Virus record (IMG/VR): IMGVR_UViG_3300009603_002872
Coordinates: 1-56,866 of that record
Source of the DNA: a virus
DNA: 56,866 nucleotides
Reading direction: 5' to 3' (one strand)
Within the stretch, counting starts at the first letter, position 1; every line of letters starts with the position of its first letter. Made by a program: the position numbers and the translations under genes. Below, one piece after another: positions 1-56,447 of this stretch. Below the pieces are notes generated by a model. It worked only from the letters and a program-made list of their open reading frames with translations, was not told the DNA's origin and did not search any database.

Positions 1-116
1 CTGCCTTCTTCATATGTGGCAGACACAACCGTCCCTGTAACCGGGATTAGTTCGTATAAGTTTGTTTTAGTTGTTATTTTATCTTGCGCCCCAAGAGGCT
101 TAACAAATGAACCCAT
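1..116 (-). CDS. Virion structural protein, N-terminal fragment (runs off left edge)
   Basis: The frame opens with ATG at 116 and stays open to the window edge, giving 38 residues that begin MGSFVKPLGAQDK and continue through TTKTNLYELIPVTG. A purine-rich site (AGG then TAAAGA) lies just upstream, inside the 12-bp gap to the preceding gene. It is last in the run of tail and appendage genes and on the same strand, so a virion component is likely. Not enough is present to name a family; the C-terminal part lies outside the window. Confidence 0.75.
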   Translation of the reverse strand, partial: MGSFVKPLGAQDKITTKTNLYELIPVTGTVVSATYEEG

Positions 117-33084: not shown

Positions 33085-33261
33085 TTATTCTTTTCCCGGA
33101 TCTTCATCCAGGTGGACTACCGGTGGGTTTTTTACAACAAGTCCATCATTAGTGGGCTCCAAGCTGAACTCTTTAAGGATCCCCGTAACATCTACTTTGT
33201 GTAAAATTCCCCTCTGCAAGGCCATCATTATAGCTCCTACCGCTTGATTCGATAAATTCAT
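33085..33261 (-). CDS. Conserved small phage protein, 58 aa
   Basis: A short gene with a perfect AAGGAGGT Shine-Dalgarno 6 nt before the ATG. Its ATG overlaps the stop of the upstream epimerase gene (ATGA), and its own stop touches the GTG of the zinc-ribbon gene. The product begins MNLSNQAVGAIMMALQRG, continues with a DVTGILKEFSL helix, and ends in an acidic Pro-rich tail. Similar short proteins occur in T4-like cyanophages, from memory. The strong ribosome site and tight fit make it a real gene. Function unknown. Confidence 0.75.
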   Translation of the reverse strand: MNLSNQAVGAIMMALQRGILHKVDVTGILKEFSLEPTNDGLVVKNPPVVHLDEDPGKE

Positions 33262-34935: not shown

Positions 34936-34942
34936 ATGTTCC

Positions 34943-39655: not shown

Positions 39656-40769
39656 GCTGATGCTGCCTGTCTCTGACTTGGTATTCAAACAGGTCTCCAT
39701 ATAGGCTTCTAACATTGTCAATGACTTCTTTTGATTCTCTTATTATAACCTTGTAGCCTTTTTCCGCGATCTCAACAGCAAACTTTAACTCTTGTGACTC
39801 TTCAAGGATTACCGTCCCTGGCTTATACGTAACTTGTTCAATAATTACATCCTCTTCTTTGTCAGTATCCTTCAAAAACTTTTCAACTTGAAATTTCAAA
39901 TGCAAAAAATTACTCTCATCAGAAGCAACACTAATAGGTACCTTTACATCTTTTTCTTCAGCATAGGCCATTAGGGCCCTGTTGTCGCGTGGAAGGCACG
40001 GACCCCCATAACCAAAACCATACCTCAAGCACTTATTTCCAACTCTTGTATCCGTTCCTATTGCCTCCAAGACCTTATCTGCTTGTGCGCCCGCCGTTAC
40101 CGCCAAATCACCAATCATATTAGCAAAGGCAATTTTGGTAGTTAGAAAACAATTAAGAGAGATCTTACATATCTCGGCGCTTAGCGGGCTCATTCTTTTA
40201 ATAGAGGGTGAATTAACACAAATATTATTATAGATATTTTCCAAAGTATCGCCTATGTTTTCATTGCCTTCTCCAATTAAGACCAGATCCGGGCTTTGTT
40301 GGTCTCTTAAAATACTCCCCTGGGCAATGAACTCCGGGTTGTAGCTGGCGACGAAACCCTCGCCCTTCAACCTCTCCGTGATCTTGTCAGTGTACCCGGG
40401 CATCACCGTCGCGCAGATTATTAAATGCTTCGTCCGCGCCTGTCTCCCAGAAGAAGACAGTTTTTCAACGACCGAATCTATCTGACTATGATCATAGCCG
40501 CCATTCGATAGCGACGGTGTGGCTACAACCACGAATAATATATCCGAGTGTTCCACCGCCTCCCTAATGTCTACAGTCGCACGAAAATTTTTAGATGCTC
40601 GCAGGTGCTCTCGTACTCCGGGCTCAGACGTAACCAACCTTTTGTCGTTAATGCTCTTAACATAATCTTCTACTATGTCTACACCAACAACATTATATCC
40701 AGATTTTTCCAATGTCAAAGCGAAACAAAGACCCAACTTGCCGATTCCGATTACCGAGACCTTTTCCAT
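39645..40769 (-). CDS. UDP-glucose/GDP-mannose 6-dehydrogenase, full length
   Basis: A 374-aa protein; GAGGAAGG precedes the ATG. The Rossmann turn is IGIGKLG (7-13). Following are VATPS (82-86), the TVMPG strand, the SYNPEF segment, the central helix EICKISLNCFLTTKIAFANM, and the active site GYGGPCLPRD with C258. It keeps a C-terminal domain (VTYKPGTVILEES onward), which the 267-aa paralog lacks. It oxidises the C6 alcohol of a UDP- or GDP-sugar to a uronic acid. Substrate cannot be settled by eye; UDP-glucose or UDP-HexNAc are the usual ones. Confidence 0.86.
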   Translation of the reverse strand: MEKVSVIGIGKLGLCFALTLEKSGYNVVGVDIVEDYVKSINDKRLVTSEPGVREHLRASKNFRATVDIREAVEHSDILFVVVATPSLSNGGYDHSQIDSVVEKLSSSGRQARTKHLIICATVMPGYTDKITERLKGEGFVASYNPEFIAQGSILRDQQSPDLVLIGEGNENIGDTLENIYNNICVNSPSIKRMSPLSAEICKISLNCFLTTKIAFANMIGDLAVTAGAQADKVLEAIGTDTRVGNKCLRYGFGYGGPCLPRDNRALMAYAEEKDVKVPISVASDESNFLHLKFQVEKFLKDTDKEEDVIIEQVTYKPGTVILEESQELKFAVEIAEKGYKVIIRESKEVIDNVRSLYGDLFEYQVRDRQHQHAA

Positions 40770-40770
40770 C

Positions 40771-41604
40771 TTACCCTTCCTCGTTTTCCAGCTTGGCTCT
40801 TATTAGCATATGCCACCCAACCTCGTCAGACATTTCTTCAAACTTTTCCTCTGTCATACTCTTAAAACAGTCCCTGACAACATAGTTCCCCTTTATATAC
40901 TCCGGTACGTCGTATGGGAAAACATGGGTTTTTTTAATTTCTTCAACATTAAAGCCCTCTAATAATTTTTTGGCTTCGAGAAAAGTATAGGTATATGCCC
41001 TGGGACAGTTCGTTTGCGCTTCCGCATATTTCCGAATTATATCATCCGAATTTGAAAAATCCCAGCTTTCGGTTTCCCTCATAAAATCAAAAAGCTTAAA
41101 ACTGTACTTTGCGTAAAGCATCAAGCGGAACTCAGCGCCTGGTTTTAAGACTTTTTTAACTTCATTGACAATATCGGCGGGCTGATCCGTATGATGAATA
41201 ACACCGAAAGAATAGACAAGATCAAATTTTTCATTTTGACGGCCTAAAACACGTACAAGGTCCTCCGCGTTTCCATGAAGAAGCCTGGCATCCAGCCCAT
41301 AAGTTTTAAACCTCTTGCGACATAGGTCTAAGCTTTTTTTGGACAACTCAACGACCGTTAAGTCCGCTCCGTGGCGTACAAAATTTATGCTATCAGTCCC
41401 AATCCCACAGCCTATTTCTAAAACCCTCTTACCTTTCCACTTTTCAAATTCGGCAAACTTTGGGATGTGTGGCTCGACAAAGTATTTCTTCTTTTCAACT
41501 TCATCAAAGTACTCTCTTGTACCGATCTCTTTTTTAGAATGTCTAATGTTACAAGGGCGATGATCCCAAAAGGCCTCAATCTTATCTATTAATAAGGTTT
41601 TCAT
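40771..41604 (-). CDS. Class I SAM-dependent methyltransferase
   Basis: A 277-aa protein; the ATG overlaps the upstream stop as ATGA. Motif I is [11 protein letters not shown] (61-71). Next comes VVELSKKSL with the acidic residue, and [12 protein letters not shown] as motif post-II, then [14 protein letters not shown]. The C-terminal part is longer than the minimal fold. It is likely to methylate a sugar or small acceptor in the same pathway. The acceptor is not predictable. Confidence 0.85.
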
Positions 41605-42137
41605 TTAACCGCCTCTACATTCAAACTAATGAGCATTCCATTTTCTTTATCCATGTGAGGTTGATATCCTTGGCTATTATCATCAACATGTGCGTGCTCT
41701 GTTTCACGCCAATCATATCGGTACACTTCTCTAAACCCAACTTCTTCTAGGTCTTGGCTTAACGAATCAAAATCCCAACACCAATGATGGAAATTATTTT
41801 CATAATCTTGCCCGCCATAAAGAGATCCCCTTAACAAAGGAAGGTCCTTGTGCTTCTGGTAATGCAAACAAATTTTTTCAAAGTCCGGGACCGCGACCCT
41901 TAAAATCCCACCCGGCTTTAAGATATCAAACCATCTTCTTAAAACAGAGCCGTATTCCCACCTAGTAAAATGCTCTAGGACATGAGATGCGTAAATCAAG
42001 TCCGCAGAATTTTTAGGGTACTTCCTGGCGTGTAAATACCTTATATCAGCTACGGCATCAACTGTCGGCATGTGCATGCTGTCTATATTGACAAATCCAT
42101 CGAGATGAACATCTCCACATCCCAAGTGTAGTTTCAT
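41601..42137 (-). CDS. Class I SAM-dependent methyltransferase
   Basis: I start at ATG 42137 (178 aa), two bases after the upstream stop and after a GGGGGAAG site. A 34-codon longer frame would lie inside the upstream gene. The protein opens with motif I at once ([19 protein letters not shown]), then [13 protein letters not shown] and [15 protein letters not shown]. The short N-terminus before motif I is typical of this family of sugar-locus methyltransferases. Likely O- or N-methylation in the cassette; acceptor unknown. Confidence 0.85.
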
Positions 42138-42138
42138 T

Positions 42139-42918
42139 TCACTTCCCCCAGCAAAAAGACGGATTAAGTACAAGCCTATTTTTTTGCTCTTCCGAAAGGC
42201 CCCTATGGTGGTCTTTTTCAATATATGAGTCTTTATCATTTAAATTCATAATCTTAAATCGACCATCATTCAGATCACTTCTCAAAAAGACTAAATTATT
42301 TCTTTTGCAAAAAGCCACTAAGTCATAGCCTTTATAATGACCCAGCCTTTCAAGGGCCGACGCCGAAGCTCCAAAAAATTGAGACTCATCCCAGCAATGT
42401 AACTCATCATAGGGTATACTAATTCTCTCTTCCCAATTTGAGTTATACTCTATTATAACAACCTTGGGTCTGTACTTCAATTCTGCCCAAACCCAATAAT
42501 CGTTCCCATCTATATCAATAGATAATAGATCAAAATCACTTTGTACAAGATTTTTCTTTAGAATTGAATCAAGTTCTTGTCCTTCATTCAAACTAATAAA
42601 CGCTTTTTCGCAAGTAACCTTTTTAAAGCTATTCATAGATTCTTTTAAAGTATTAAATCTAGCTTCGTCACCTTCAATTAAAAGAGCCCGCCACCCTTTT
42701 TTAATCCATCTATAAGAATTGCTCCAATATTTTTCTTCCCACCAGCCATTTCCAGCGCCTAATTCCACAACAACTTTATCTTTGGCATCTATTGATTCAA
42801 AGATTTTTTCTACCACCCCATCTTCACCATCAGTACTATAATAACCCTCCTCTTCCGAGGCTCCTTTCTGAGGGTGTCCGTCAACAAAACCCGCTTTGTG
42901 TAAAGAAAGATCAATCAC
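42139..42918 (-). CDS. FkbM-like methyltransferase
   Basis: A 259-aa protein beginning at GTG; no better ATG exists near the N-terminus. Motif I is VVVELGAGNGWWE (49-61) after a GEDGVVEKIFE helix. DLLSIDIDGNDYWVW corresponds to the FkbM region that normally reads KxDVEGxE, here with IDGND. The remainder (KPKVV-like VVIIEYNSNWE) fits the family. FkbM enzymes O-methylate sugars or polyketides. It overlaps the upstream glycosyltransferase-like gene by 8 bp. Confidence 0.75.
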   Translation of the reverse strand: MIDLSLHKAGFVDGHPQKGASEEEGYYSTDGEDGVVEKIFESIDAKDKVVVELGAGNGWWEEKYWSNSYRWIKKGWRALLIEGDEARFNTLKESMNSFKKVTCEKAFISLNEGQELDSILKKNLVQSDFDLLSIDIDGNDYWVWAELKYRPKVVIIEYNSNWEERISIPYDELHCWDESQFFGASASALERLGHYKGYDLVAFCKRNNLVFLRSDLNDGRFKIMNLNDKDSYIEKDHHRGLSEEQKNRLVLNPSFCWGK

Positions 42919-43969
42919 GATTCGACTTTTTATATAGGGTTATTTCATGTTGGGGAATCCAGTCTCTAACAAAGTCGCTATAATGTTTCATGCCTCCATT
43001 AAATTTGGTAAATACTTTCCACACTTCCAGATATTTTTCCCATTCCTGTTTCCACGGATTGCTCACCTCATAAGGCGCAGAGCCGGGAGTGTGTATCAAA
43101 TTTTCAGCGCTAACCCCCTCTTCCCTCCCCTCGATTCCTCTAAGCCACTCCGTATTGTGAGGAATCGCGAAGTGCTCCATAAATTTAGGCTTCACAGCGA
43201 GACCTTTATCAATCAAATGTTGTTTTTGAGAAATATCTCCAAGCCTCTCTTGCGGATGCCCAGGGCCTTCCCAGCGTTCAGATTTTTCCCAGCAATTCCA
43301 AAACCATCCATCAGTCTCTTCTATAAGCCTATTTTTATTAACCGTATGTAACCCTTGGCTTTCGCGCGAATCCGTATAATACGCTCCCCTGTACGCAACC
43401 GCTAGACTATCAAAGTTCTTACCCAACGAAGCCAACAAATATTCAAACTCCAGTCTGTGGGCTGCTTTTCTAATTCCCTCGTGATTGTTTTGGAATCCTT
43501 CAACCCATATTTCGTTTCTGTCACTAGACCGTTGTTCATCAATAAACTTGATAATTCTAGCGCATTGTTCTCTACCCATTATATCGCAATGCTGGTACGT
43601 CACCCAATCAGTCCTCGCAAGGTAAAGCCCAAGATTCCACTGGATGCCAGTGTCATACGCGGGATACTGGCTTCGGTTTTTTTCCAAATTCATGCAATAA
43701 ACATCTAGAAAATCATATTTAAGCACTATGGGATTTGGCTTGTCGGTCCACTCAATCCATATAAAATCAACATCCTCAGAGTTATATTGGTTTTGACAGC
43801 ACTTCAGTGCCAGATCAATATAGCCCTCCCTATAGAGAGCGTCCCACATAACAACCGTTAGCCGCTTCTCTTCATTTTCATACGGAGCCGGGGTAAAGAA
43901 GTTCCAAGTCGGCTTATCGCAGGGACTCCACGACCATTCAGGTACTATTATTTTTTTCTCATCACTCAT
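42911..43969 (-). CDS. Putative GT-A glycosyltransferase
   Basis: A 352-aa protein with GGAG upstream of its ATG. The N-terminal half looks like a GT-A domain: RLTVVMWDALYREGYIDLAL, then DFIWIEWTD, then GIQWNLGLYLARTDWVTY followed by QHCDIMGRE, where the C-D pair sits at the DxD position. The second half contains several Trp/His-rich segments and no known domain. No membrane segment. Family assignment is tentative, and donor and acceptor are unknown. Confidence 0.6.
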   Translation of the reverse strand: MSDEKKIIVPEWSWSPCDKPTWNFFTPAPYENEEKRLTVVMWDALYREGYIDLALKCCQNQYNSEDVDFIWIEWTDKPNPIVLKYDFLDVYCMNLEKNRSQYPAYDTGIQWNLGLYLARTDWVTYQHCDIMGREQCARIIKFIDEQRSSDRNEIWVEGFQNNHEGIRKAAHRLEFEYLLASLGKNFDSLAVAYRGAYYTDSRESQGLHTVNKNRLIEETDGWFWNCWEKSERWEGPGHPQERLGDISQKQHLIDKGLAVKPKFMEHFAIPHNTEWLRGIEGREEGVSAENLIHTPGSAPYEVSNPWKQEWEKYLEVWKVFTKFNGGMKHYSDFVRDWIPQHEITLYKKSNRD

Positions 43970-44657
43970 AAATAATCTCCAAATTAGGGGCTTTTGGCAA
44001 TTCAGCGACAGTAATCATCTTAAAATCAACCTCAGGGTTTCTCTTAACAACATCCATAAAATGACCAACCATATCTGTATTCTTCATCTTACGCTGCTGG
44101 TTTTCTAACGAATTATGCCATGGGCGTCTAAACAGGTAATCTTCTTGATAAAAATCTAATCCAACAACCCAAAGATTTTTAGGCTTCAAAAAATCAGCGG
44201 CATATATAACAGCTAGAACTCCAGTGTTCGGATGCTTCTTCTTGTATTTGCCATCTCCAGGCTTAAGATAAAACTTATCATCAAAATAGTCATTATATTC
44301 AAGTAGCCTCTCAGGAAGCATATGACAGGTTAATTCCAGACTTTCATAATACTGCTTCATATGTGTCAACTCTGGATCAAGCTCAGCCTTTGAGAACTGT
44401 ATATTCTCGATACCAAGCTCCCTGTAGTGCTCCGGTAGCAGCGGCGCTGTATGAAGTCTGTTTACGAAATGTGCAACGCGCTTATCTTTAAGTTCGGGTG
44501 CGATAATTGAGTATTCGGAATCTTCATTATCAACATTTTTATCGATATTATTAACAATAAAACAATCTTGAAAATTACTAGAAAACTCCGGAAGTCTCGC
44601 CACGCTAGCACCCTTGAGGACAACGCCAAAGTTATTCAAGTTTTTTTTAAAGTACAT
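43962..44657 (-). CDS. GT42/GT29-like putative sialyltransferase
   Basis: A 231-aa protein with GGGAAGG before the ATG, starting right after the FkbM stop. The N-terminal FGVVLKGASVARLPEF (10-25) resembles the first CMP-binding loop (G.G.S), followed by DCFIVNN. Residues 143-170 contain P-N-T-G-V, a helix, and VVGLDFY, in the same layout as the PTSG...GIDFY region of GT42 sialyltransferases. KNTD (192-195) follows as in that family. The catalytic His cannot be placed with certainty. In the same operon are NeuB-like and NeuA-like genes, which would supply a CMP-linked donor. This is a reasoned call, not a confirmed one. Confidence 0.62.
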   Translation of the reverse strand: MYFKKNLNNFGVVLKGASVARLPEFSSNFQDCFIVNNIDKNVDNEDSEYSIIAPELKDKRVAHFVNRLHTAPLLPEHYRELGIENIQFSKAELDPELTHMKQYYESLELTCHMLPERLLEYNDYFDDKFYLKPGDGKYKKKHPNTGVLAVIYAADFLKPKNLWVVGLDFYQEDYLFRRPWHNSLENQQRKMKNTDMVGHFMDVVKRNPEVDFKMITVAELPKAPNLEIIYE

Positions 44658-45509
44658 CTACCCTTCCCTAGTGACCATAAAGCTGCGCACGATCTTTTTG
44701 CTGCCCTGCTCCCAGTGCTCCTGGCAAGCAAACTTAAGCAGGTGTTCGTTGCTAATATTATTATATATTCCGCGATGAAACCCGTCTGTATAGACACTCT
44801 GCACAGGCTCATATCCTGCCATTTCAAAAAGCTGCGGTTGCGGAACAGGTGTCGCTACGACATATCTAGAATCAAAACCAATCTTAAAATATTCCTTAAG
44901 GATCTTAACAAAATCGTTATCCTCATTATATAATGCCGGGTGTACCTCAACTAGCATACTGGTGTATCCCTCGTTTTTTGAAAAATAATCAAGGCCGCTT
45001 TCAAATATCTTCACTTCGTGGCCTTCGACATCCATTTTAATAAAATTGGGATATCTCCTCCCCTCTAAAAAGCTCGTCAGCGTATAGCACGGAACAGATA
45101 TCTTATTGGTGCTATACTTATTCTTTGTTACGCTACTGAGGTTCGGCTTGCTGGCTTCCCAGAAATCTATTTCTCCATTGTTATCACTTATTGCGCAATG
45201 AACAGTTTCATGATTTTCATATCCATTCTCCTCAATGTTTTCTTTCAAGAGCTTTAAATTTCTAGGATCGGGCTCAATTGCATACACAAATCCGTCATCT
45301 CCACAGTTTTCTAGCATATAAAGGGTCGTATAACCGATATTACTACCCAAGTCAACACACGTCATTCCCTCTTCAACCTCATTCTGTAGCAGGCCCATAA
45401 AGGCAAGCTCCCGCTGGCCCTGGTGGTACAATACTGCCGAGATTCCCCCATCTTCAACATCAAGGTTCATCATGTGGTTTCCAATGCGCTTCTTAAGAAC
45501 GTTAGACAT
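44658..45509 (-). CDS. FkbM-family methyltransferase
   Basis: A 283-aa protein, with GGAGAG before the ATG. Motif I is CVDLGSNIGYTTLYML (51-66), then VYAIEPDPRNL with the SAM-contacting acidic residue, and FIKMDVEGHEVKIFE, the FkbM signature. The C-terminal 60 residues may hold acceptor specificity. It overlaps the neighbouring FkbM-like gene by 8 bp, so two related enzymes are made in tandem. Likely sugar O-methylation; acceptor unknown. Confidence 0.87.
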   Translation of the reverse strand: MSNVLKKRIGNHMMNLDVEDGGISAVLYHQGQRELAFMGLLQNEVEEGMTCVDLGSNIGYTTLYMLENCGDDGFVYAIEPDPRNLKLLKENIEENGYENHETVHCAISDNNGEIDFWEASKPNLSSVTKNKYSTNKISVPCYTLTSFLEGRRYPNFIKMDVEGHEVKIFESGLDYFSKNEGYTSMLVEVHPALYNEDNDFVKILKEYFKIGFDSRYVVATPVPQPQLFEMAGYEPVQSVYTDGFHRGIYNNISNEHLLKFACQEHWEQGSKKIVRSFMVTREG

Positions 45510-46185
45510 TCAACTCTCCATTAATCCTATTATCAATAGCGCTTAATACTAAATCAAGCATATTTACATTTTTATCGTGCCCTATAATTGTATAGGTAGT
45601 GCCTTCCGGCGTAGAATCAAATCTTCCCGTCGCAGAAAATTTATGCAAAAATATGTCGTTATTTTCTAGTAAGGCGTAGTAGTCGCCTTTAACAGGGAGT
45701 AGTTCAGAAATTTTTTCAATATCATGTCCAGCGCCACAAAAAATATCCACATGTTTTACTAAATCGCTTTTAACTAGGTCCTGGAACACTTCGTACTCCG
45801 CCCCCTCAATATTCATTTTTATAATATTGATATCATCTTTAAATGTTGGGACATTATCTAGAATCCACTCAGAAAATAAAATTGATTCCACATCTTCACT
45901 TTCACTTGTGACATTCTTTTTTGTACTAAAAAGCGAATGGCCTAAGTTATTCGGAGCGTGATATAGTTTTCTATTCCCCGGCTTGCCTGAAACAGCGTAA
46001 TTAAAAATTTTGATATTGTCTTTTTTAAGCCACGGAATATTACTAACCGCTTCATAGTGCTCACGACATGCCTCAAAGCCATATGCAAAAAAATTATCAA
46101 ATCCTATCTCTGGGATTATACGTTCCGCCATGACCGTTAATTCGGTCCCATGATACAGTCCAAGATCAAAGTAATTAATCCTCAT
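45502..46185 (-). CDS. FkbM-family methyltransferase
   Basis: A 227-aa protein. The motif-I equivalent is NYFDLGLYHGTEL (4-16), and NIIKMNIEGAEYEVFQDL matches the FkbM KxxxEGxE block. AYGFEACREH is the SAM-side acidic segment. The N-terminus is shorter than in the 283-aa paralog and starts almost at motif I. It overlaps the upstream glycosyltransferase gene by 11 bp. Substrate unknown; probably another methylation of the same glycan. Confidence 0.8.
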   Translation of the reverse strand: MRINYFDLGLYHGTELTVMAERIIPEIGFDNFFAYGFEACREHYEAVSNIPWLKKDNIKIFNYAVSGKPGNRKLYHAPNNLGHSLFSTKKNVTSESEDVESILFSEWILDNVPTFKDDINIIKMNIEGAEYEVFQDLVKSDLVKHVDIFCGAGHDIEKISELLPVKGDYYALLENNDIFLHKFSATGRFDSTPEGTTYTIIGHDKNVNMLDLVLSAIDNRINGELNV

Positions 46186-47089
46186 CTATTACCCCTGACA
46201 AAAAATCGCCGTACTTCTCTGAAGTATTTACCATATCAATATCAGTATCGCAATCATTTATGTATTGCTTGCTAAAATCCAAAGGCCTGGAAACATTGAC
46301 TTCTTCTGGACTAAGATCCCAGTGATCTTCAATAACAATAGCGCCCTTTCCGGCGATCTCTTTTGTTCCGCCTACGGAAGAACACACAATCTCACAGCCA
46401 CACGCACGAGCGTCCACAACAACGTTGGGACAGTTATCATATCTCCCAAGATGAACAAGTGTATCCGACGCCTTATAGACCCCTAAAAGCTCGGACGTAG
46501 ATAATTCCCCAAGATATTTAAGCTTACTATCCTCAACCACCTGTTCCGTTTCTCCGGCAATCAACATGACATCGTTTTCAGATGAATTCTCTAAAAAATA
46601 TCTTATATTTTCATCCAATCTTTTGAACGGCCTCCAATGTGAGGCTGCGCACCACACCTTGCCATTTTTATTTCTTATCACATGCGGAGGAGTGTTTTTT
46701 ATGGCCTCCATATCCGCTCCGTTATGGATAATAGTAGAGTTTTTATGTTCTCCAAAATATTTAAAAACGAGTTCCTTGCTAAACCTAGACTGAAACACTA
46801 CCGCATCAGAATTCCGATAAGTTCCGAGTATATTTTGGTTTTTTATTGCAAAATTATCGGTGGGATCAAAATAAATACCATCCAGCCTCTGTACCATTGG
46901 TATGTATCCGTCGGTTGCATTTTTTAATCGCCCATATAAGCTTTCTACAAAAGCCAAATGAACATCGGGAATGCTACCAGGGTGGTAAAGTTCATGCCCC
47001 ATTTTCAATAGCTGCTTAACAAGCTTGCTCGCAAAGTGGTTTGGCCCCGTTGTTGACTCGATATTAACATTGTCCAAAAAAATATTCAT
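46175..47089 (-). CDS. GT4-like glycosyltransferase (GT-B)
   Basis: I use ATG 47089 (304 aa), whose ATGA overlaps the upstream stop, with GGAAAAG before it. The N-terminal domain begins MNIFLDNVNIESTTGPNHFA. The C-terminal GT-B domain contains GKVWCAASHWRPFKRLDENI (the linker and first strand), LGELSTSELLGVYKASD, and YDNCPNVVVDARACGCEIV, the donor-binding E/D region of GT4. No membrane segment. It shares the D-x-CP-(N/R)-x-V motif with the second half of the tandem glycosyltransferase at 49596-51686. Confidence 0.82.
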   Translation of the reverse strand: MNIFLDNVNIESTTGPNHFASKLVKQLLKMGHELYHPGSIPDVHLAFVESLYGRLKNATDGYIPMVQRLDGIYFDPTDNFAIKNQNILGTYRNSDAVVFQSRFSKELVFKYFGEHKNSTIIHNGADMEAIKNTPPHVIRNKNGKVWCAASHWRPFKRLDENIRYFLENSSENDVMLIAGETEQVVEDSKLKYLGELSTSELLGVYKASDTLVHLGRYDNCPNVVVDARACGCEIVCSSVGGTKEIAGKGAIVIEDHWDLSPEEVNVSRPLDFSKQYINDCDTDIDMVNTSEKYGDFLSGVIDED

Positions 47090-47700
47090 TTCTTTTCCGC
47101 TACAACAACCTGGCACTCCACTTGGACCGGGCAGATATACTGCTGTTTAATATCAAAGAATTGTGACATATACTCTTGAAGCTCACCAAGCGTCCACTCC
47201 CTAATGTGCATCTTGTTGTAAGGAGGGCCATTTTCCTCCACCTCCCACCCAAAGCTTCTTTGTAGTCCTTGTATAGCGCCTCTCTCCGGCGTAGATAAAA
47301 CCAGAGTCTTAAAGTTCACTTTATTTATAAACCTTAAAAGCTCATCAGGATCTAAAACATGCTCAAGTACATCAGAACATATAATTAAATCTACTTCGTC
47401 TTGAGGAGGATTATTAAAATCAGACTCTCGAAAATCATATAATGGGTACTTCTTTTTAATAAAAGATAGATTGGGTTCAAGTTCCAGCCCTATTATTTTT
47501 TTATCTCTAAAAAACTTCACAAGCTTATATGCGGAGCCGCATCCAATATCTAAAATTGTTTTATAGGATTCCTGATCGCATATAGTCCTGGCCTTCTGAT
47601 AAACCTCTCTTTGGAATTGGTCCGTATGCTCCATCTGTTCACAAGTAACATACTCTTCTCTATGAATGTACCCCTCTTTTATGTTGTATACTTTATCCAT
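47086..47700 (-). CDS. Class I SAM-dependent methyltransferase
   Basis: I prefer the ATG at 47700 (204 aa), with a GAGG site at about 9 nt, over the ATG five codons earlier. Motif I is TILDIGCGSAYKLV (about 48-61), then IGLELEPNL, VDLIICSDVLEHVLDPDEL and FKTLVLSTPERG. This is a small methyltransferase of the type found in sugar loci. Its start overlaps the stop of the upstream glycosyltransferase by 8 bp, and its end overlaps the next by 4 bp. Confidence 0.85.
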   Translation of the reverse strand: MDKVYNIKEGYIHREEYVTCEQMEHTDQFQREVYQKARTICDQESYKTILDIGCGSAYKLVKFFRDKKIIGLELEPNLSFIKKKYPLYDFRESDFNNPPQDEVDLIICSDVLEHVLDPDELLRFINKVNFKTLVLSTPERGAIQGLQRSFGWEVEENGPPYNKMHIREWTLGELQEYMSQFFDIKQQYICPVQVECQVVVAEKK

Positions 47701-48856
47701 TGTACAAAACCTCATCTAAATACTCAACCGTGCTTTCATAACTTAAAACCCTGGACCAGTCTTTTGTCTTCTTGGCTATGCGATCATAGTAATCTTTATC
47801 CGAACTAAGTCTTTCAAGCTCTTTTTCAAGCTGCTCTTCATTTCTGACATCTATCGCCGGCATGTCTGCGTACCTTCCGACCGCCTTCGTGTCCTGTAGG
47901 GAGCAGATCGTGGGGACACCAAAATACATCGCCTCAAGGCCGGATTTTCCAACACCTCCACATGTGTCAGTAATTTTATCTATACAAACGTGTGATTGCG
48001 CCTTTTCAATTATTATATCTTTGTTTGGTAATTGGTTTTCTTTTCCGTATATATTGATCTTTACTTTAGGGATTTTGCTCGCAACTTTTTTAACTATATC
48101 GCTTCCTTTCTTGTGTGATTCTCGAAGGCCCGGAGTGTGTATTACAGAAAACTCTCCTTTCTTTTTTTCACTAATATACTTAAAATCATAAGTTTGCATC
48201 AGAGGAAGAGACTCGCGATGCAACCCTACCAAATCTAGCATCGCAAACGCCTGGATATTAAATATGTCTATATATCTGTTAAGGTTTTCACTATTCTCCC
48301 TATACGTTGTATCCGTCCACCAAGACGCTAGTCTTCCGGTAAGCCGCTTCGTGTATTCTTCAACAATACGAAGCTTTTCATTCGTCGTATGCAGAGAATC
48401 CGGAAATATTATTTCTAAAAGTGTTTCCCAGTCTCTAAAAAGGCCTTTGCTTTTCGCAGCCAAACAAAGGCCGATAAAAGACATCCGGCCTAGAGTATAA
48501 GGAGTCCCATTTTCTTCAGACAGATCCGTTATTTGTATTTTGTCCTCGACTCTATATTCTCTACAATAATCAAGTTTAAACAGGATCTCAAGCATATCAA
48601 GTGAGCGTCCAGAAATACCAAAAAAATATATATCCGGATCATATAGCGCTTCAAGTAAGTATTCTATACTTTCTAATGAAGTTAAATCGCTCCAATATTT
48701 CTTTTGTTCTTTTTTTAAAAACCCATACGGTATACTATCCGCATAGATGCCCTCCGCCGTAAACCGGCGCGAGTGTTCGTTAATCGCTTCTATAAGGTTT
48801 CCAGATGCACCATACGAAGGGGAAGGCGCAATTATTATTAATTTTTTTTTGTTCAT
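47693..48856 (-). CDS. GT-B glycosyltransferase, GT4-like
   Basis: A 387-aa protein. It starts MNKKKLIIIAPSPSYGASGN, the first strand of a GT-B enzyme; the coding strand holds a run of A here. The N-terminal half is divergent. The C-terminal half has FSVIHTPGLRESHKKGSD, a VKINIYG strand, and GGVGKSGLEAMYFGVPTIC, the donor-binding loop with E. The ATG overlaps the upstream stop by 4 bp (ATGA). Donor not predictable. Confidence 0.72.
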   Translation of the reverse strand: MNKKKLIIIAPSPSYGASGNLIEAINEHSRRFTAEGIYADSIPYGFLKKEQKKYWSDLTSLESIEYLLEALYDPDIYFFGISGRSLDMLEILFKLDYCREYRVEDKIQITDLSEENGTPYTLGRMSFIGLCLAAKSKGLFRDWETLLEIIFPDSLHTTNEKLRIVEEYTKRLTGRLASWWTDTTYRENSENLNRYIDIFNIQAFAMLDLVGLHRESLPLMQTYDFKYISEKKKGEFSVIHTPGLRESHKKGSDIVKKVASKIPKVKINIYGKENQLPNKDIIIEKAQSHVCIDKITDTCGGVGKSGLEAMYFGVPTICSLQDTKAVGRYADMPAIDVRNEEQLEKELERLSSDKDYYDRIAKKTKDWSRVLSYESTVEYLDEVLYNG

Positions 48857-49596
48857 TCTAATCCTACGAGCCTATCATAGGGCCTTTTGGCCCTTATGTC
48901 TCTTTCAATGCGAAGCTGCTCCCCTCTGTGTACTCTATCGACCGATATGGGATTTTCTCTATTATAGACATATAGCACATCATAAATTGGACAAAAGTGC
49001 TCAGGACCAGCCATCTCCACCATAGGATACATCATTGCTTGATCAAATGTGCATTTATAGAAGTTACCGTCATGATCAAACATATCCTCTTTATTTACTT
49101 TTAAAAATAGTTCACGGCGAAATGTCCTCAGGTGAGAAATTGTCCAAGCGTGCCTTCTAATATTGCCATCCCAGAACCCCTTATTTATTTGAGGCGACGA
49201 TACAAGCCCATTAGAATTATCAATATATGAACCAGCAGTTATCCATACATCCGGCGTATATATTTCATTCAATCTTGCAAGAACGTCATGATTAGGAAAC
49301 CAATCATCACCGTCCAAAGTAATAATTATACTTTCACGGTGAGATCGCACAATCTCGTTATATATGTTTTCTAAGGCCTTCTTGTTAATCTTGTTTTTTT
49401 CATAATGAAAATTTTCAGGATCTCCCAAGTTATCAATAGTGTTACTGACAACCGCATCGGTCTCATCGGTAGAGCAGTCGTTTATATACGCGACATCGAA
49501 GTTATCATATTTTTGTGCCAGAGCAGACCTAACGTTTTTTTCTGCCCATTGCTCAACATTGTACGCAGGTATCACTATCGTAAAATGTTGTTCCAT
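48853..49596 (-). CDS. Glycosyltransferase family 2 (GT-A)
   Basis: A 247-aa protein; the ATG overlaps the tandem glycosyltransferase stop as TAATG. FTIVIPAYNVEQWAEKNVRS is the GT2 start; YINDCSTDETD follows, and ITLDGDDWFPNHDVL carries the DxD. A His-rich region (HAWTISHLRTFRRELF) fits the acceptor side of GT2. No membrane segments. Donor and acceptor unknown. Confidence 0.86.
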   Translation of the reverse strand: MEQHFTIVIPAYNVEQWAEKNVRSALAQKYDNFDVAYINDCSTDETDAVVSNTIDNLGDPENFHYEKNKINKKALENIYNEIVRSHRESIIITLDGDDWFPNHDVLARLNEIYTPDVWITAGSYIDNSNGLVSSPQINKGFWDGNIRRHAWTISHLRTFRRELFLKVNKEDMFDHDGNFYKCTFDQAMMYPMVEMAGPEHFCPIYDVLYVYNRENPISVDRVHRGEQLRIERDIRAKRPYDRLVGLE

Positions 49597-51686
49597 TACG
49601 CAAAACTATTCTGCCAAAAGAAGTCTTTTCGCGTTCTAAGATAATCCAAAGCGCCATCTACATCGCCTTCAAACCAATCCTCTCCCATGTGTTGAACATT
49701 TTCATTAAGCTCTAGTTCACACCCAAGCAGCTTGGCTTCAATAACAAATCTAGGGCAGGTATCGTACCCGCTCGGCTTAAAACATATGCCCTTGGATTGG
49801 TTTAGTTTCTCAAGAAACTGCCCATACGGTAAATTAAACAGCACTTCATAATCAAGTTCCTTTTGCGCGCACCACCTCTCAGAGGCGGCAGCCCCTTTTA
49901 CCCAGCTATTCGATCCCAAGACGACCCACTTATCCTTCTTGTCGCCATCCTGGGACTTCAATATATCCAACTTCTTGAAAAAGCCATCATCAAATACAGA
50001 GGACAGAATATGACTATTTGCCTTCTTTATCCCGGGTAGACACTCCTGATATATGTCTCTTTGTTTTTCAGACATAAAGAACGTGGAGCTAGAATTAGTA
50101 ATAAAGTCAGATAGAAGCTTTCCTCTAGGCGTTTCTTTATAGTCGCATTCTTCCGGCTCTACAAAAGAATATAACAATGGATTTCTATGCTTGCAAAACT
50201 TATAATCAAATTCTACAAAGCTATACTCTATTCCGGATTCATGAAATAGAGGCAATAAATCAAAATCAATATTGGCTATATTACCAAAAATCCATTTCTT
50301 ATCTTTAAACCTATCAATTATTTCCCTTGTTACAAGGTTCGAGTTGACCCTGTTGAGTCCTGTCGGGCACGAATCAATTATTGCCTGTAGGCTTAGTTCC
50401 GCGCCTCCCTGGTACTGTTCCTTGAACAAATCACTCACAAAAATATACTGTGCGTCGTCGGTGTATAAATCACTTCCGCCCAGCACAGACTCAACGAACT
50501 CTCCATGTTTTGACTCTTCTGAAAAATTCTCTAATAGGTGTGCCTGTAGCTTTTCTGCTTGGCTCTTAAACCTAGGATAGTCTTTATAGACCTCCCTAAG
50601 CCTCATCTTAAATGAGCCCTCCTTGGGAAAGCACCAGCCAGAATCAGCCTCTAGAACCCCCGGCCAAGCTGCCTCCGGCTCAATCTGCTGGATGCTGTAC
50701 TCAACATGCGCAAAATAGGGGCGAATCTTTTCCTTTCCCTTTTTATCTACTTTTGGAGCATATAAGAAATCGCATTGTCCAGACCACCCCGGAACAACGA
50801 TAGGGAGGCCGTTGTATGCACTTTCAAAAAGAGGCAATCCAAACCCTTCTCCGTGTGTAGTAGAAATCATGCATTTAATTTTGGGATTATTATATAATGA
50901 ATTCATCTCTTGAAGGGATAGATCTCCATGCAATAGATATACCTTGCACTTCCTATCCTCATACTTTTTCAAGAACTTTTTAAGCTTTTTAGTAGCCCTG
51001 CTTCTATCGATCAAGGAGTTGTTCTCCATGTTCATCTTGATAACAAGCCCTACTTCCTGATCGATAAACTCCTCAACAAACCATCTCAAGCAAGACTTAA
51101 GGTTTTTTCTTGGTGAGAATTGCGCAATCGTCAGGAAATTAAAATCATATTCCAGATCCAATTGTATATCTTTTTCTTCAGTCTCCCTCACAGGGTATGA
51201 AACAACATCAACCGGCGTTGTCAATCTAAAATCTTTAATCTCTTGCCCTGTATTGGGGTCTCTCTTCGTATAAGAAGTGTTTTCATAAACCTCCTTCGAG
51301 TGATTAGACACAACAATAATCCTATCCATAAAATTACCGGACTCAATCCACTGCCCGGATACTTTCGTTGTCTCAATACCAGCAGTATACCCGATGTTTA
51401 TGGGTGCCATTTTTTCAAATTCATTCGGTATGGTTACCTGAAGGGATATGTCATAGGGCCTCTTTTCACCATGAAGATTCGATTGGTGCTTCATAATAAG
51501 TGAATCAAGCCACTCCCGCTCCTCATCATCCTCAAAAATCCAGCCTGTTTTCCCCCAATTAGTAGGAATCAAAAATATATCAAATAGGTCTTCTCTTGTT
51601 CTTAGTGCCCTTAATGCAAATCGAGTTTGCTCTCCGTACCCGCTTTGGGATAGTGCTGGGCCTCGTACTATAATTCTTTTTTTCAT
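49596..51686 (-). CDS. Tandem glycosyltransferase with two GT-B units
   Basis: I start at ATG 51686 (696 aa), right after the upstream stop, with GGAGG 6 nt before it. The 21-codon longer frame lies inside the upstream gene. Unit 1 (about 1-400) is GT4: GPALSQSGYGEQTRFAL, FLTIAQFSPRKNL and HGEGFGLPLFESAYNGLPIV (E about 280). Unit 2 (about 414-696) begins YIFVSDLFKEQYQGGAELS and contains VVLGSNSWVKGAA and PSGYDTCPRFVIEAKLLGCE (about 638-657). Both halves keep the donor-side Glu region, so both may be active. Fused transferases usually add successive residues to one glycan. The second unit resembles the protein at 46175-47089. Confidence 0.8.
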   Translation of the reverse strand: MKKRIIVRGPALSQSGYGEQTRFALRALRTREDLFDIFLIPTNWGKTGWIFEDDEEREWLDSLIMKHQSNLHGEKRPYDISLQVTIPNEFEKMAPINIGYTAGIETTKVSGQWIESGNFMDRIIVVSNHSKEVYENTSYTKRDPNTGQEIKDFRLTTPVDVVSYPVRETEEKDIQLDLEYDFNFLTIAQFSPRKNLKSCLRWFVEEFIDQEVGLVIKMNMENNSLIDRSRATKKLKKFLKKYEDRKCKVYLLHGDLSLQEMNSLYNNPKIKCMISTTHGEGFGLPLFESAYNGLPIVVPGWSGQCDFLYAPKVDKKGKEKIRPYFAHVEYSIQQIEPEAAWPGVLEADSGWCFPKEGSFKMRLREVYKDYPRFKSQAEKLQAHLLENFSEESKHGEFVESVLGGSDLYTDDAQYIFVSDLFKEQYQGGAELSLQAIIDSCPTGLNRVNSNLVTREIIDRFKDKKWIFGNIANIDFDLLPLFHESGIEYSFVEFDYKFCKHRNPLLYSFVEPEECDYKETPRGKLLSDFITNSSSTFFMSEKQRDIYQECLPGIKKANSHILSSVFDDGFFKKLDILKSQDGDKKDKWVVLGSNSWVKGAAASERWCAQKELDYEVLFNLPYGQFLEKLNQSKGICFKPSGYDTCPRFVIEAKLLGCELELNENVQHMGEDWFEGDVDGALDYLRTRKDFFWQNSFA

Positions 51687-51687
51687 T

Positions 51688-52944
51688 TTATACCTCCAGT
51701 AGCTCCCATCCCTTATATAACTTAGTCGGCCAGCTTCCATTCCTTTCATGAATATCAGTCAATAAATCAACCCATTGTTGATTATGATTATCAAAATTAT
51801 AATTCTTCTTGACGTATTCTCTACCAAGAGTTCCAAGCGCCTTTCTATCTTCCTCCGGTAGCTCCCAAATCTTAACCAATGCGTCTATGACATCTTCCTT
51901 GCCAACCCTATCTTCATAGATATAAGGGATATCTTGTGTGCCGACAATTGCCTTGGAAGCCGGTTCTATTCCAACGCCGAACCAATTCTTCCCATCCGTA
52001 ACCTGTTCCTGTAGGCCTCCGGTCATATTGACAATAATTGGAGTACCACAAGAGAGCGATTCTAAAGTACTCAGGCCAAACCCCTCCGCATCAGATATAT
52101 TTATCGTTACATCCGACAAGTTATACATGTTCGCAAGAAACTCCTGTGGTACGATATTATTATTTATAATGAGTTCCTGGTCTGTCAACTCCAAGTCATT
52201 TTTAATAGCTTGAAGATTCTGTCCATTTGGATCATACGGATTTGTATGCATTAGCAAAACCGCTTTGTCTCGGCCAACCTTGTCTAAAAAGTCTTTCCAC
52301 CAAAATACCAAAGAACCACTAAGCTTTCTACGCGCATTTCTATTATTCCAAAAAACAACAAACCTATCATTTTCTAAGGTTGGAAAGTGCTTTTCAGAAA
52401 ATTTACTTAATTCATCCTTGGGCGTCGGTTGAAATAGCTCACTGTCAACGGAATGCGGGATGTAGGTATTTTCCAAATCAGGGCACACGGTACTAACAAT
52501 ATCATGTGTGACCTTAGAAATAGAGACAAAGTGGTCATTAGAGCCCCATACTGGCTTGTTGTAAACCGGATACGGATAATTGTCCCAAATCCCATACCAC
52601 ACCATAGGCACTAAGGGCCTGACTTCATTTGACATCTCAAGGAGCCATTGAAAAAACCTTGGATCCGATTGAAACAGTAGAACATCTGGACGTTGAGTAC
52701 GCAACAGGCTCCTTATTGTTTCTTGCGATCCAAACCCATCTATGGGTTGGATAATCCAATCATCACCAAACTCTTCTGTCTTAATTGGATTATAGTCCTC
52801 GTGCTTTATTGCTCCACCAAACGAATACACAGTGAACTTACCGGATCTTAACAGCGCCGTGATTATAGTCCTCATTGTGTGGGCCACCCCTGACGCCATC
52901 AGCGGGTGATCAGAGATCGTAAAGACCTTAATTTTTTCAGACAT
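51688..52944 (-). CDS. GT4-family glycosyltransferase (GT-B)
   Basis: A 418-aa protein with GAGG before the ATG. It starts with strand KVFTISDHPLMASGVAHTMR. Later come FVVFWNNRNARRKLSGSL, where the basic residues bind phosphate, then DVTINISDAEGFGLSTLESL, the E-x7-E donor loop. It ends with RKALGTLGREYVKKNYNF. It is the first gene of the sugar cassette to be transcribed, 10 bp after the nuclease gene. Cytoplasmic. Donor not readable. Confidence 0.87.
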   Translation of the reverse strand: MSEKIKVFTISDHPLMASGVAHTMRTIITALLRSGKFTVYSFGGAIKHEDYNPIKTEEFGDDWIIQPIDGFGSQETIRSLLRTQRPDVLLFQSDPRFFQWLLEMSNEVRPLVPMVWYGIWDNYPYPVYNKPVWGSNDHFVSISKVTHDIVSTVCPDLENTYIPHSVDSELFQPTPKDELSKFSEKHFPTLENDRFVVFWNNRNARRKLSGSLVFWWKDFLDKVGRDKAVLLMHTNPYDPNGQNLQAIKNDLELTDQELIINNNIVPQEFLANMYNLSDVTINISDAEGFGLSTLESLSCGTPIIVNMTGGLQEQVTDGKNWFGVGIEPASKAIVGTQDIPYIYEDRVGKEDVIDALVKIWELPEEDRKALGTLGREYVKKNYNFDNHNQQWVDLLTDIHERNGSWPTKLYKGWELLEV

Positions 52945-53716: not shown

Positions 53717-54144
53717 TACGCACCTGACGTTTTTCTTCTATTCTTTTTCCTCTTAGAGGATACGGGCGTTTTACTTTCTTGTAAAGATTTATTTTTTGGC
53801 TGGACACTTAAGGGTGTCGCTATACTCGCCGCTGGCTTGGGAGCCGGGTTCGTATTTTTTTCAGGCGACTTTCTTTTCGTAATTCGGCTATCCTTGAAGG
53901 GGAGACTTGACCGTTTGGCCTGTTCCACCGTCTTATCTCCAGGTTCAAAGACCCACGTACCAGATTTGTTAGAGAAGTTTACGACAGTGTTCTTTAAGCA
54001 CCTACCGACGCTTATCTCTTCTTCTCTCAACTTTTCCATCAACAAGGAGCACGTTATTCTACCACGCTCTTCAAAGCGAGGATCAAATTCTCCCCTGACG
54101 TGAACTTCTAGTCCCCGGCTTGTTAAATTTAATTTAATATCCAT
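53716..54144 (-). CDS. Small protein with basic, disordered C-terminus
   Basis: A 142-aa protein with ATG, overlapping the metallopeptidase gene by 11 bp. The first 70 residues form alternating strands and one helix (RGLEVHVRGEFDPRFEERG, then SLLMEKLREEE). The rest is Lys/Arg/Pro/Ser-rich and probably disordered, with KRKKNRRK near the end. A basic tail suggests nucleic acid contact. I do not recognise a family. Confidence 0.65.
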   Translation of the reverse strand: MDIKLNLTSRGLEVHVRGEFDPRFEERGRITCSLLMEKLREEEISVGRCLKNTVVNFSNKSGTWVFEPGDKTVEQAKRSSLPFKDSRITKRKSPEKNTNPAPKPAASIATPLSVQPKNKSLQESKTPVSSKRKKNRRKTSGA

Positions 54145-54802
54145 TGATGAACTCCTCTAGGGCTTCTATCGCTTTATAAACAGACGGACTAATTTTTCTA
54201 ACCCGCCCTAGCTTACCTAAGTAGTAAGATTCAAAGCCATTTGCGAAATATTCTCTAATCGACGTAGCCCCGTAAGGCGTTACAAAGAGTTCTCCGACGA
54301 TTTTCCTCATGAGATCATAAGTAACCTCTTTGTACAAAAATTGATCAATCTCCTGATCCCACTTTAATTCAAACTCAAAATGTGGGGGGGCCTGAAACCC
54401 CCTCTGCTGTAGGGCCTTAGATAATTTTCTTCTTTTTATCAGGAATTCTTGAACGATTTCGTCGTCCCCATAGATCTCATCGTAAGCGATTCTCTCTAGA
54501 TTATGAGCGACCTCGTGTATTATATCATCTATGAGGTCTTTATCATTATCCTGCTCGTTATCAATATACATAGTACCCTTGAAAAACATAGCATTCGTCT
54601 CGTTATCTTCAAGTTCCTTGAACTTTCCAATATAAATTGAATCGATCCCAGTGAAGTAGACCTCTGGTAATATACCTTGTATTGTGTTTATAACATCAAA
54701 TAAATTAATGTATTTAGGTAACGGATCTTTTATAATTATAGGGGATCCAAATATCTTTGGATCGGTTTTACTTTTAGTAGTTTCTATTATGTACTTCTTC
54801 AT
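54134..54802 (-). CDS. HExxH zinc metallopeptidase-like protein
   Basis: A 222-aa protein starting at ATG 54802, overlapping the upstream gene by 29 bp. H96-E97-V-A-H100 is a zinc metallopeptidase motif inside a helix (DIIHEVAHNLERI). Glu184 in SIREYFANGFESYY is a good candidate for the third ligand, in the E-x2-A-x2-F-x2-Y layout of anthrax lethal factor-like and similar peptidases. There is no signal peptide, so it acts in the cytoplasm or in the virion. Its substrate is unknown. This is not the T4 gp21-type prohead protease fold, which lacks HExxH. Confidence 0.75.
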   Translation of the reverse strand: MKKYIIETTKSKTDPKIFGSPIIIKDPLPKYINLFDVINTIQGILPEVYFTGIDSIYIGKFKELEDNETNAMFFKGTMYIDNEQDNDKDLIDDIIHEVAHNLERIAYDEIYGDDEIVQEFLIKRRKLSKALQQRGFQAPPHFEFELKWDQEIDQFLYKEVTYDLMRKIVGELFVTPYGATSIREYFANGFESYYLGKLGRVRKISPSVYKAIEALEEFINGY

Positions 54803-55139
54803 TATTATTTTTTATTTCTAGATATTCTTTAGTATTATACCGGACTCTCATTTTCTTAAATGTATCAAGTTTAATACCTAACATCAAACATATTTCCTTT
54901 TGTGTCCTTTTATAGGTCTCAGCAAAGTTTAAAACTGATTCCTTAACAATAAAGTCCAACACATGATACAATGGGAAACAAAATTTTCCATTAAGTAACT
55001 TACACATTAACTCTAGTTTAAGAGAAAGGATCTCTTCTATGGATAAAGAATTTAGTAAAACCTCAAATTCCTTATGGATCCCTTTCTCTGTTCTTAATTT
55101 ATGTGAAATACTAAAGTATTTATTTTTTGTGCGTTCCAT
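54774..55139 (-). CDS. Small helix-turn-helix-like protein
   Basis: A 121-aa basic, largely helical protein. Near the C-terminus, YKRTQKEICLMLGIKLDTFK followed by KMRVRY looks like a helix-turn-helix with a basic recognition helix. The ATG at 55139 directly follows the GGTACC repeat block, whose last copy supplies an AGGT ribosome site. Together these suggest a small regulator that is itself regulated by its leader. DNA binding is an inference from the motif. Confidence 0.6.
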   Translation of the reverse strand: MERTKNKYFSISHKLRTEKGIHKEFEVLLNSLSIEEILSLKLELMCKLLNGKFCFPLYHVLDFIVKESVLNFAETYKRTQKEICLMLGIKLDTFKKMRVRYNTKEYLEIKNNNEEVHNRNY

Positions 55140-55142
55140 TTG

Positions 55143-55164
55143 TACCTAGGGTACCTAGGGTACC
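55143..55164. repeat. 9-bp palindromic tandem repeat (TACCTAGGG) in leader of 121-aa gene
   Basis: TACCTAGGG is repeated at 55143-55151 and 55152-55160, with a third partial TACC at 55161-55164. On the coding strand this reads GGTACC-CTA-GGTACC-CTA-GGTAC, then AA and the ATG. Each GGTACC is self-complementary, so the RNA can pair any two units with a 3-nt CTA loop, and the last unit contains the likely ribosome site. Translational control is possible. A dimeric protein operator is equally possible. Confidence 0.7.
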
Positions 55165-55165
55165 A

Positions 55166-55234
55166 TATATTGGATCTCTTGTAAAGCTTTAATATACTAT
55201 TAAATATAACTAATACTTAAATACATAAAGTAAA
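55166..55234 (-). promoter_or_regulatory. AT-rich segment, possible host-type promoter
   Basis: Between the two repeat blocks is a stretch of about 70 bp that is almost entirely A/T. On the coding strand it contains TTAAGT and, 18 bp later, TATATT, a weak match to a bacterial -35/-10 pair pointing at the 121-aa gene. AT-richness alone makes such matches likely, so this is a candidate only. No T4-type late octamer is present in it. Confidence 0.3.
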
Positions 55235-55274
55235 GGATCCAACACATTGGGATCCAATACATTGGGATCCAATC
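55235..55274. repeat. 15-bp tandem repeat with BamHI-type palindromes
   Basis: GGATCCAACACATTG (55235-55249) and GGATCCAATACATTG (55250-55264) are followed by a third partial copy GGATCCAATC from 55265. Copies 1 and 2 differ at one position. Each TTGGATCCAA core is or nearly is a palindrome, so the sites look like operators or iterons on a 15-bp period. They lie directly after the acidic-protein gene and upstream of the 121-aa gene. No terminator hairpin with a T-run is seen here. Confidence 0.75.
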
Positions 55275-55276
55275 TA

Positions 55277-55951
55277 TTAAGTCCTGGGAGCGTTTAAAGA
55301 AATATCCTCTTCGAAAGACTTCATATATAAACGTAAATTTTTAATTAAATATTTAGAGAAGGTTTTACGATCCCCTTCATCTGCTAAGAGTTCTGCTGAA
55401 GTTACTATTTTAGATTCTATTTTTTTAAACGTTTCATAGGCCATATTACGACCTGTCTCATCGAGACCAGAAATCCGGAAATCCTGCCTCTCCCTATCTT
55501 CATCTGATACAATCTCGTCTTCAATATCAAGGAGACCCTCATCATCAAGACCAAGCATCTTTAGGATTTCTTCATCTTCATCTTCGTCTTTGTATAGTTT
55601 GATCTTTAAGCCTTCATCTATGCCTTCGTGTCTAGCATGGTCAAGGCTTAACAGGTTTTGAACCGCTTTAACTAAATGCAGAGAAAAAGATTTCCTCTGT
55701 TCAACACTGGTACCAAGGTCCTTGTATCCGTCTTCAATAGACGGTATAATCTCTTTTAAGAGATCCTCTAAGACATTAATCGCCGTGGAGCGAGTAGGAA
55801 ATCTTCCCATCTCTACTTCTTTTAAAAGACCTCGTACAGTGGTTTTTATGTAGGCCTCTTTAATAGCTTCTTTCTCAAGATTGTCCATGACAACCTTAGA
55901 GATCTCCTCTCGTATGACTCTTTCCTGCAAAACTTTAAGCCTATCTACCAT
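55277..55951 (-). CDS. Acidic helical protein of unknown function
   Basis: I start at ATG 55951 (224 aa), two bases after the upstream stop; a TTG start four codons earlier is less likely. The protein is mostly helical. Residues about 120-160 form a strongly acidic stretch (YKDEDEDEE, then DIEDEIVSDEDRE), and the end is LRLYMKSFEEDISLN. No catalytic motif or membrane segment. It could be an assembly or scaffold-type protein, which is inference from composition. It is the last gene before the repeat-rich leader. Confidence 0.6.
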   Translation of the reverse strand: MVDRLKVLQERVIREEISKVVMDNLEKEAIKEAYIKTTVRGLLKEVEMGRFPTRSTAINVLEDLLKEIIPSIEDGYKDLGTSVEQRKSFSLHLVKAVQNLLSLDHARHEGIDEGLKIKLYKDEDEDEEILKMLGLDDEGLLDIEDEIVSDEDRERQDFRISGLDETGRNMAYETFKKIESKIVTSAELLADEGDRKTFSKYLIKNLRLYMKSFEEDISLNAPRT

Positions 55952-55952
55952 G

Positions 55953-56447
55953 TTAATTACCAAATTGAGATTCTTTACCCTTGTCTAATTCAAGAGCGAC
56001 ATTGCCGGTGGTTGCCTTCACAACTGCCTTCTTAGCTCCCGGGCGAGGCAAACCACCTGCCTGGGTTCCTACAACCTCGGAGGAGTCCCCTAAATCCACA
56101 TTATATGGGCCTCCAGCATCTTCAACGTCTTGGTCAGTCGTATGTGAAAATGGACCCGGAGTTCCTTGAACATCTCCCCCGGCCACAGAGGACGTTTCAA
56201 TCACGACCCCTTCTAACAGAATATCCCGCTCTTCAACGGCTTCATTAAGATTTCTTTCCATCTTACTAAGTTCGGTCTTCAAAGACTTAAGACGCTTTTT
56301 GATTGAATGGACTCTGTTTCTATCGCCATCCGTTCTAACTCTTAAATTTTCTAACAAGTCTTGAATTGTCCTGAAGTCATCCCTCCAAGATTCCTGAACT
56401 AAAAAGTCTCCCTTAATAAACTTCTTTGTTAATTTTTTATAATTCAT
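55953..56447 (-). CDS. Coiled-coil protein with disordered C-terminus
   Basis: A 164-aa protein with GGAG 7 nt before its ATG. Residues about 20-75 form a charged coiled coil (HSIKKRLKSLKTELSKMERN). The rest is Gly/Pro/Asp/Ser-rich and probably disordered. The upstream stop lies 12 bp away. No recognised family. A role as adaptor or assembly factor next to virion genes is possible but not shown. Confidence 0.6.
   Translation of the reverse strand: MNYKKLTKKFIKGDFLVQESWRDDFRTIQDLLENLRVRTDGDRNRVHSIKKRLKSLKTELSKMERNLNEAVEERDILLEGVVIETSSVAGGDVQGTPGPFSHTTDQDVEDAGGPYNVDLGDSSEVVGTQAGGLPRPGAKKAVVKATTGNVALELDKGKESQFGN

Follow-up and report, generated by a model that had tools for sequence, protein, structure and literature searches.

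The 137 bp at positions 55140-55276 of the window (the whole 56,866-nucleotide stretch of the viral record IMGVR_UViG_3300009603_002872) are best explained as the promoter-operator region of a gene for a 121-aa Fis-like helix-turn-helix (HTH) protein, which would be autoregulated through the repeats in this region. We put the probability of this reading at roughly 55%. The layout, in which repeats cover the predicted -10 element and start site, the promoter spacer holds a half-site, and further units lie upstream, is by its sequence that of a repressible promoter. A preliminary description of this DNA had called it a control region, perhaps autoregulatory. The first part agrees with the family promoter found inside it and the Fis-like HTH gene that follows; the autoregulation we infer.

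Its baseplate-wedge proteins identify the window as part of the genome of a T4-like virus. The 123.5-kb record IMGVR_UViG_3300025280_000023 represents the same phage (99.98% identical) and carries the leader unchanged; because it is the same phage, it is uninformative on the conservation of the repeats. It was also the only relative above 50% identity recovered through the 121-, 222-, and 228-aa proteins. From 33258 to 52944, the minus strand of the window carries a long run of genes that, going by their sequences alone, are of sugar-nucleotide and glycosyltransferase-like types. Just past the window, near 58 kb on contig G001, GC skew and gene orientation switch sign together. Many proteins encoded beyond the window on that contig (e.g., L008; L005:5503-6372) begin with MKxLLENWRxxLxE, a start that recalls the T4 capsid-targeting peptides cut by the prohead protease.

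The 137 bp make up the entire gap between the 228-aa gene (55277-55963) and the 121-aa gene (54774-55139), which comes first after the predicted promoter. Both genes are on the minus strand, as are all parts of the region described below. Direct repeats with a 15-bp period run through 55235-55279, and the preliminary description was right in placing three GGATCC units on this period (55235, 55250, and 55265); the three-unit array (55235-55273) is proposed to supply upstream operators. Close to the 121-aa gene lies the array GGTACCCTAGGTACCCTAGGTAC (55142-55164), a proposed promoter-overlapping operator. Here the reported 9-bp period was recovered, and of the three GGTACC-type units said to follow it only two are full (55150 and 55159), the third being truncated to TGTACC (55141-55146). 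The AT-rich stretch reported between the arrays was also found, as a 58-bp spacer (55177-55234) of 16% G+C. Read along the minus strand, the gap starts as TAG ATTGGATCCCAAT GT ATTGGATCCCAAT GT GTTGGATCC, passes through the AT-rich stretch, and continues as GATCCAATATAT, then GGTACCCTA GGTACCCTA GGTAC, then AA and the ATG. Inverted repeats with a 3-bp center are contained in both arrays. The odd palindrome ATTGG-ATC-CCAAT is present twice in the GGATCC array (55261-55273 and 55246-55258), where the third unit, GTTGGATCC, is partial, and the other array contains GGTACC-CTA-GGTACC. A fourth GGATCC-type half-site, GATCCAAT, is inverted and sits between the predicted -35 and -10 elements (55169-55176).

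The tandem-repeat score of the 15-bp array, 71, is the maximum of the window, and that of the 9-bp array is 46. For 7-mer repeats, the leader scores 32, the second-highest value for any 137-bp stretch of the 123.5-kb contig; 3 of 5000 dinucleotide shuffles reached this score, which puts the arrays beyond chance, with the caveat that AT-rich DNA readily yields repeats on shuffling. No second occurrence of the GGATCC or GGTACC arrays was found anywhere in this contig of the same phage. The clustering of these palindromes had been called notable on the grounds that phages often avoid them. This argument fails in the window, where GGATCC occurs 18 times (12.2 expected) and GGTACC 6 times (6.3 expected); restriction-site avoidance is not supported.

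The promoter was predicted through the relatives of this phage. The pattern TTGACA-16..18-TAnnnT is found in 28 of 50 distinct family leaders, compared with two of 55 other gaps from these loci (Fisher p 8e-10); the count covers leaders at least 50 bp long, distinctness was judged by shared 8-mers only, related leaders are non-independent, and the gene starts and gaps of relatives were called mechanically. A matrix built from the promoters of 27 relatives, with the window phage excluded, matches GCTTTACAAGAGATCCAATATATGGTACCCT, which lies 17 bases before the ATG in the window leader. Its score of 14.7 was reached by none of 1000 shuffles and is the second best in the contig on both strands, with one site scoring higher. 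The predicted promoter reads CTTTACAAG-17-TACCCT. From this match we place the -35 element at TTTACA within CTTTACAAG (55180-55185; one mismatch to TTGACA), the -10 element at TACCCT (55157-55162; within the GGTACC array, at a spacing of 17 bp from the -35), and the RNA start near 55150. The GGTACCCTAGGTACCCTAGGTAC array extends over this predicted -10 and the start site predicted with it, as well as over the ribosome site. The promoter call rests on similarity to relatives, since the generic sigma-70 score is insufficient by itself (p 0.30, not significant) and the -10 TACCCT is weak. In L090 and L091, two of the closest relatives (43-44% identity), the gene is preceded by TTAACA-17-TATAAT. 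Five bases past the -10, 21 of 28 promoter-bearing relatives have TGTG, a motif not found in the window leader, which has AGGTACCC there. Three loci (L035, L073, and L085) have a strong promoter-like TTGACA-17-TATATT on the opposite strand of the gap before the 121-aa homologue, facing back over the 228-aa homologue. This type was present in 3/50 leaders and 0/55 control gaps, and in L085 it adjoins four 12-bp repeats (AAAACAACATAA).

The 121-aa protein is most likely a Fis-like HTH DNA-binding regulator, as judged from its modeled structure. A single-sequence fold was poor (pLDDT 55) and was discarded in favor of an alignment-based model using 54 relatives (mean pLDDT 78), which has the helical core and C-terminal HTH of the Fis fold. 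The best 25 PDB matches of this model were all E. coli Fis (probability up to 1.00, E 0.13), with Z 7.3 over residues 26-104, while the top match that is not of the Fis/NtrC kind had 5.7; because Z is below 8, the match is taken as resemblance and not as proof of descent. The sequence match to Fis is weak. The window protein did not match PF02954 (HTH_8) at the curated cut-off, HTH_8 matched two of the 54 relatives weakly (best E 0.0011), and the family profile reached PDB entries of Fis/NtrC at E 0.26-0.38. We thus use the term Fis-like rather than Fis.

This protein family is carried by hundreds of uncultured marine T4-like phages. A profile of 54 relatives matched at least 302 stretches of viral contigs and found no relative in bacterial genomes. 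The upstream 228-aa gene has at least 101 relatives in viral contigs; a two-sequence profile of its protein led to 79 loci, and in 72 of 80 loci fetched via a 228-aa homologue, a relative of the 121-aa gene was located downstream of that homologue. Annotated phages gave no match to the 137-bp region, the 121-aa protein, or the 228-aa protein; Pfam and PHROGs gave no name for the 121-aa family, and a search of the literature on phage Fis-like regulators returned nothing relevant. SKKDAARFLG-L/I-TY is common to nearly all relatives that have the TTGACA promoter, and promoter-less relatives differ; a link between operator and recognition helix was considered and rejected as confounded by descent. 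After the 121-aa gene comes a 222-aa gene (54134-54802) encoding the metallopeptidase-type motif IIHEVAHNLE, with weak matches to Pfam metallopeptidase families below their cut-offs.

The exact repeats are private to this phage, while the promoter and gene order are common to the family. A pattern scan of viral contigs for the exact GGATCC/GGTACC repeats returned nothing but the near-identical contig of this phage. The preliminary description had held that lack of conservation in close relatives would count against its view; the exact repeats were not found outside the population, where the nearest relatives reach only 38-48% protein identity and the searches for the 121-aa protein brought up no closer outside relative. 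What a minority of relatives retains is a leader rich in repeats of other sequence. At p<0.01, repeat content was strong in six of 50 family leaders and in none of 55 control gaps; at p<0.05, the counts were 11/50 and 8/55, an excess that is not significant, and the majority of family leaders show no significant repeat content. In many relatives the leader is missing altogether, since the gene for the 121-aa homologue overlaps the upstream gene. After the -10, GTGA/TCAC is threefold enriched in relatives (46 vs. 15.9 in shuffles, sd 3.2), and the palindrome GTGAYWATCAC recurs in the leader of one group of relatives. Across the 130.8- and 187.4-kb records, three of the four distinct sites for this palindrome fall in the leader of the 121-aa homologue. 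This pattern fits, without proving, start-site operators whose sequence changes between lineages. In two groups of relatives, the gene is preceded by a conserved block particular to the group, GTATCATATTTCAGAATTT in L095, L103, L106, and L139, and CCAACCGTCCGACCAAGGGTATCAT in L102, L107, L114, L146, and L163.

For the window, we propose that a host-type sigma-70 promoter, TTTACA-17-TACCCT, reads into the 121-aa gene and would yield a transcript with a very short leader (~11 bases). The GGTACC array would cover the -10, start, and ribosome sites, with one GGATCC-type half-site in the promoter spacer and three GGATCC units ~50-90 bp upstream of the -35, beyond the AT-rich stretch. A DNA-binding protein, most simply the 121-aa Fis-like protein, would bind these repeats and shut off or tune the promoter once enough protein is present, possibly with looping between the upstream and promoter sites. 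The analysis shows the repeats, the protein family, its common gene order, the promoter match, and the predicted fold; repeat binding, the 121-aa protein as the binder, and repression as the effect are all three what we infer. Autoregulation by the 121-aa protein is probable, and it is the simplest reading because an HTH gene's leader is the only place in the contig where the repeats occur.

The same sequences could also act in RNA. In a switch of the T4 gene e/soc/I-TevI type, which may coexist with operators and which we consider possible but doubtful, read-through RNA from the 228-aa gene would hide the ribosome site in a GGUACC hairpin, and RNA from the promoter in the 5' arm would start past that arm and be translated. 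The weak Shine-Dalgarno-like element CCTAGG (55145-55150) is indeed overlapped by the last GGTACC unit, and pairing between the units, which had been proposed along with this overlap, is predicted by RNA folding. The predicted unpaired probability of CCUAGG is 0.03 in read-through RNA and 0.02 in RNA from the AT-rich part, and about 0.2-0.5 in RNA starting in the array. The leader RNA has a folding z of -3.7, the predicted -10 lies within the 5' arm, and the mechanism is known in T4 (PMC3014915). However, the predicted gain in accessibility for short transcripts is modest and hinges on the exact start, and in 27 promoter-bearing relatives the accessibility of the ribosome site differs little between read-through RNA and RNA from their own promoter. 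In addition, the window leader has no late promoter TATAAATA, and a switch leaves the GGATCC units and the relatives' repeats past the start site unexplained. Rfam gave no match for the region. DNA operators are likelier than an RNA switch because the pairing is unconserved and a transcript from the predicted promoter would lack the hairpin; with relatives that do without it, we regard the RNA layer as a rival or an addition.

The operators might instead belong to another DNA-binding protein of host or phage, and the region would still be a promoter control site. The repeats resemble inverted-repeat operators, their tie to the 121-aa protein consists of adjacency and the family pattern, and the presence of two kinds of repeat, each with its own period, could point to two proteins. 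This seems unlikely given that the repeats occur only before the 121-aa gene in the contig, as for an autoregulator and not a many-target regulator, and that the relatives' palindrome GTGAYWATCAC is mostly confined to the leader of the 121-aa homologue. Also improbable is that the repeats are neutral or mutational, functionless products of slippage between the two genes. That one gap holds two independent arrays, together with an inverted half-site in the promoter spacer, speaks against it, as do the second-highest repeat score of the contig and the higher frequency of strong repeats in family leaders than in control gaps (6/50 vs. 0/55), even though the structure is tandem, the exact repeats were not found outside the population, and modest repeats occur in other phage gaps (8/55 at p<0.05). 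A replication origin, with 15-bp iterons beside an AT-rich unwinding element, would account for an iteron-like array adjoining 58 bp of 16% G+C. It is very unlikely, because the GC skew changes sign with gene orientation near 58 kb and not at the leader, relatives carry a promoter at the same place, and no initiator gene is adjacent. The points counted against each make an origin, a restriction-related role, and pure slippage less likely than the operator-bearing promoter.

As a promoter with operators, the control region itself would be of a known kind, and the gene downstream encodes a common but unnamed regulator that is absent from the family libraries searched. The shared promoter suggests that the 121-aa gene is expressed by host RNA polymerase, early in infection. 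The combination of a shared promoter with lineage-specific repeats is a testable case of regulator-operator co-evolution. More speculatively, and with considerable doubt on our part, the family may be a widespread one of Fis-like early regulators that control themselves, with operator repeats swapped wholesale from lineage to lineage as promoter and gene order persist; every phage would then have a private pair of regulator and operator, here with an RNA hairpin at the ribosome site in addition.

Fis sites are degenerate AT-rich 15-mers, unlike the exact GGATCC and GGTACC arrays of the window. The resemblance to bacterial Fis lies in a small HTH protein of similar modeled fold and in a sigma-70 promoter with repeats before its gene; the window protein differs in having only about 20-27% identity over the aligned part and no Pfam Fis-family match, and the bacterial fis gene follows dusB. 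In E. coli, fis is subject to negative autoregulation at its promoter (Ninnemann 1992, cited in PMC4751926). In the T4 gene e, soc, 49, and I-TevI leaders, longer transcripts have their ribosome site sequestered by a hairpin, and the 5' arm of that hairpin contains a promoter (PMC3014915). The predicted window promoter has the same position in a predicted hairpin of this kind, but it is host-type where those leaders use the late promoter TATAAATA, and its hairpin is formed by 9-bp tandem repeats that are not kept in relatives. Repressor operators of the lambda OL/OR kind are sets of several nearly identical inverted repeats that overlap an HTH gene's promoter. The window shares this arrangement in that its inverted repeats overlap the predicted promoter of an HTH gene, and it differs in its setting, a large T4-like virus in which no lysogeny genes were seen and where the promoter is single and not divergent.
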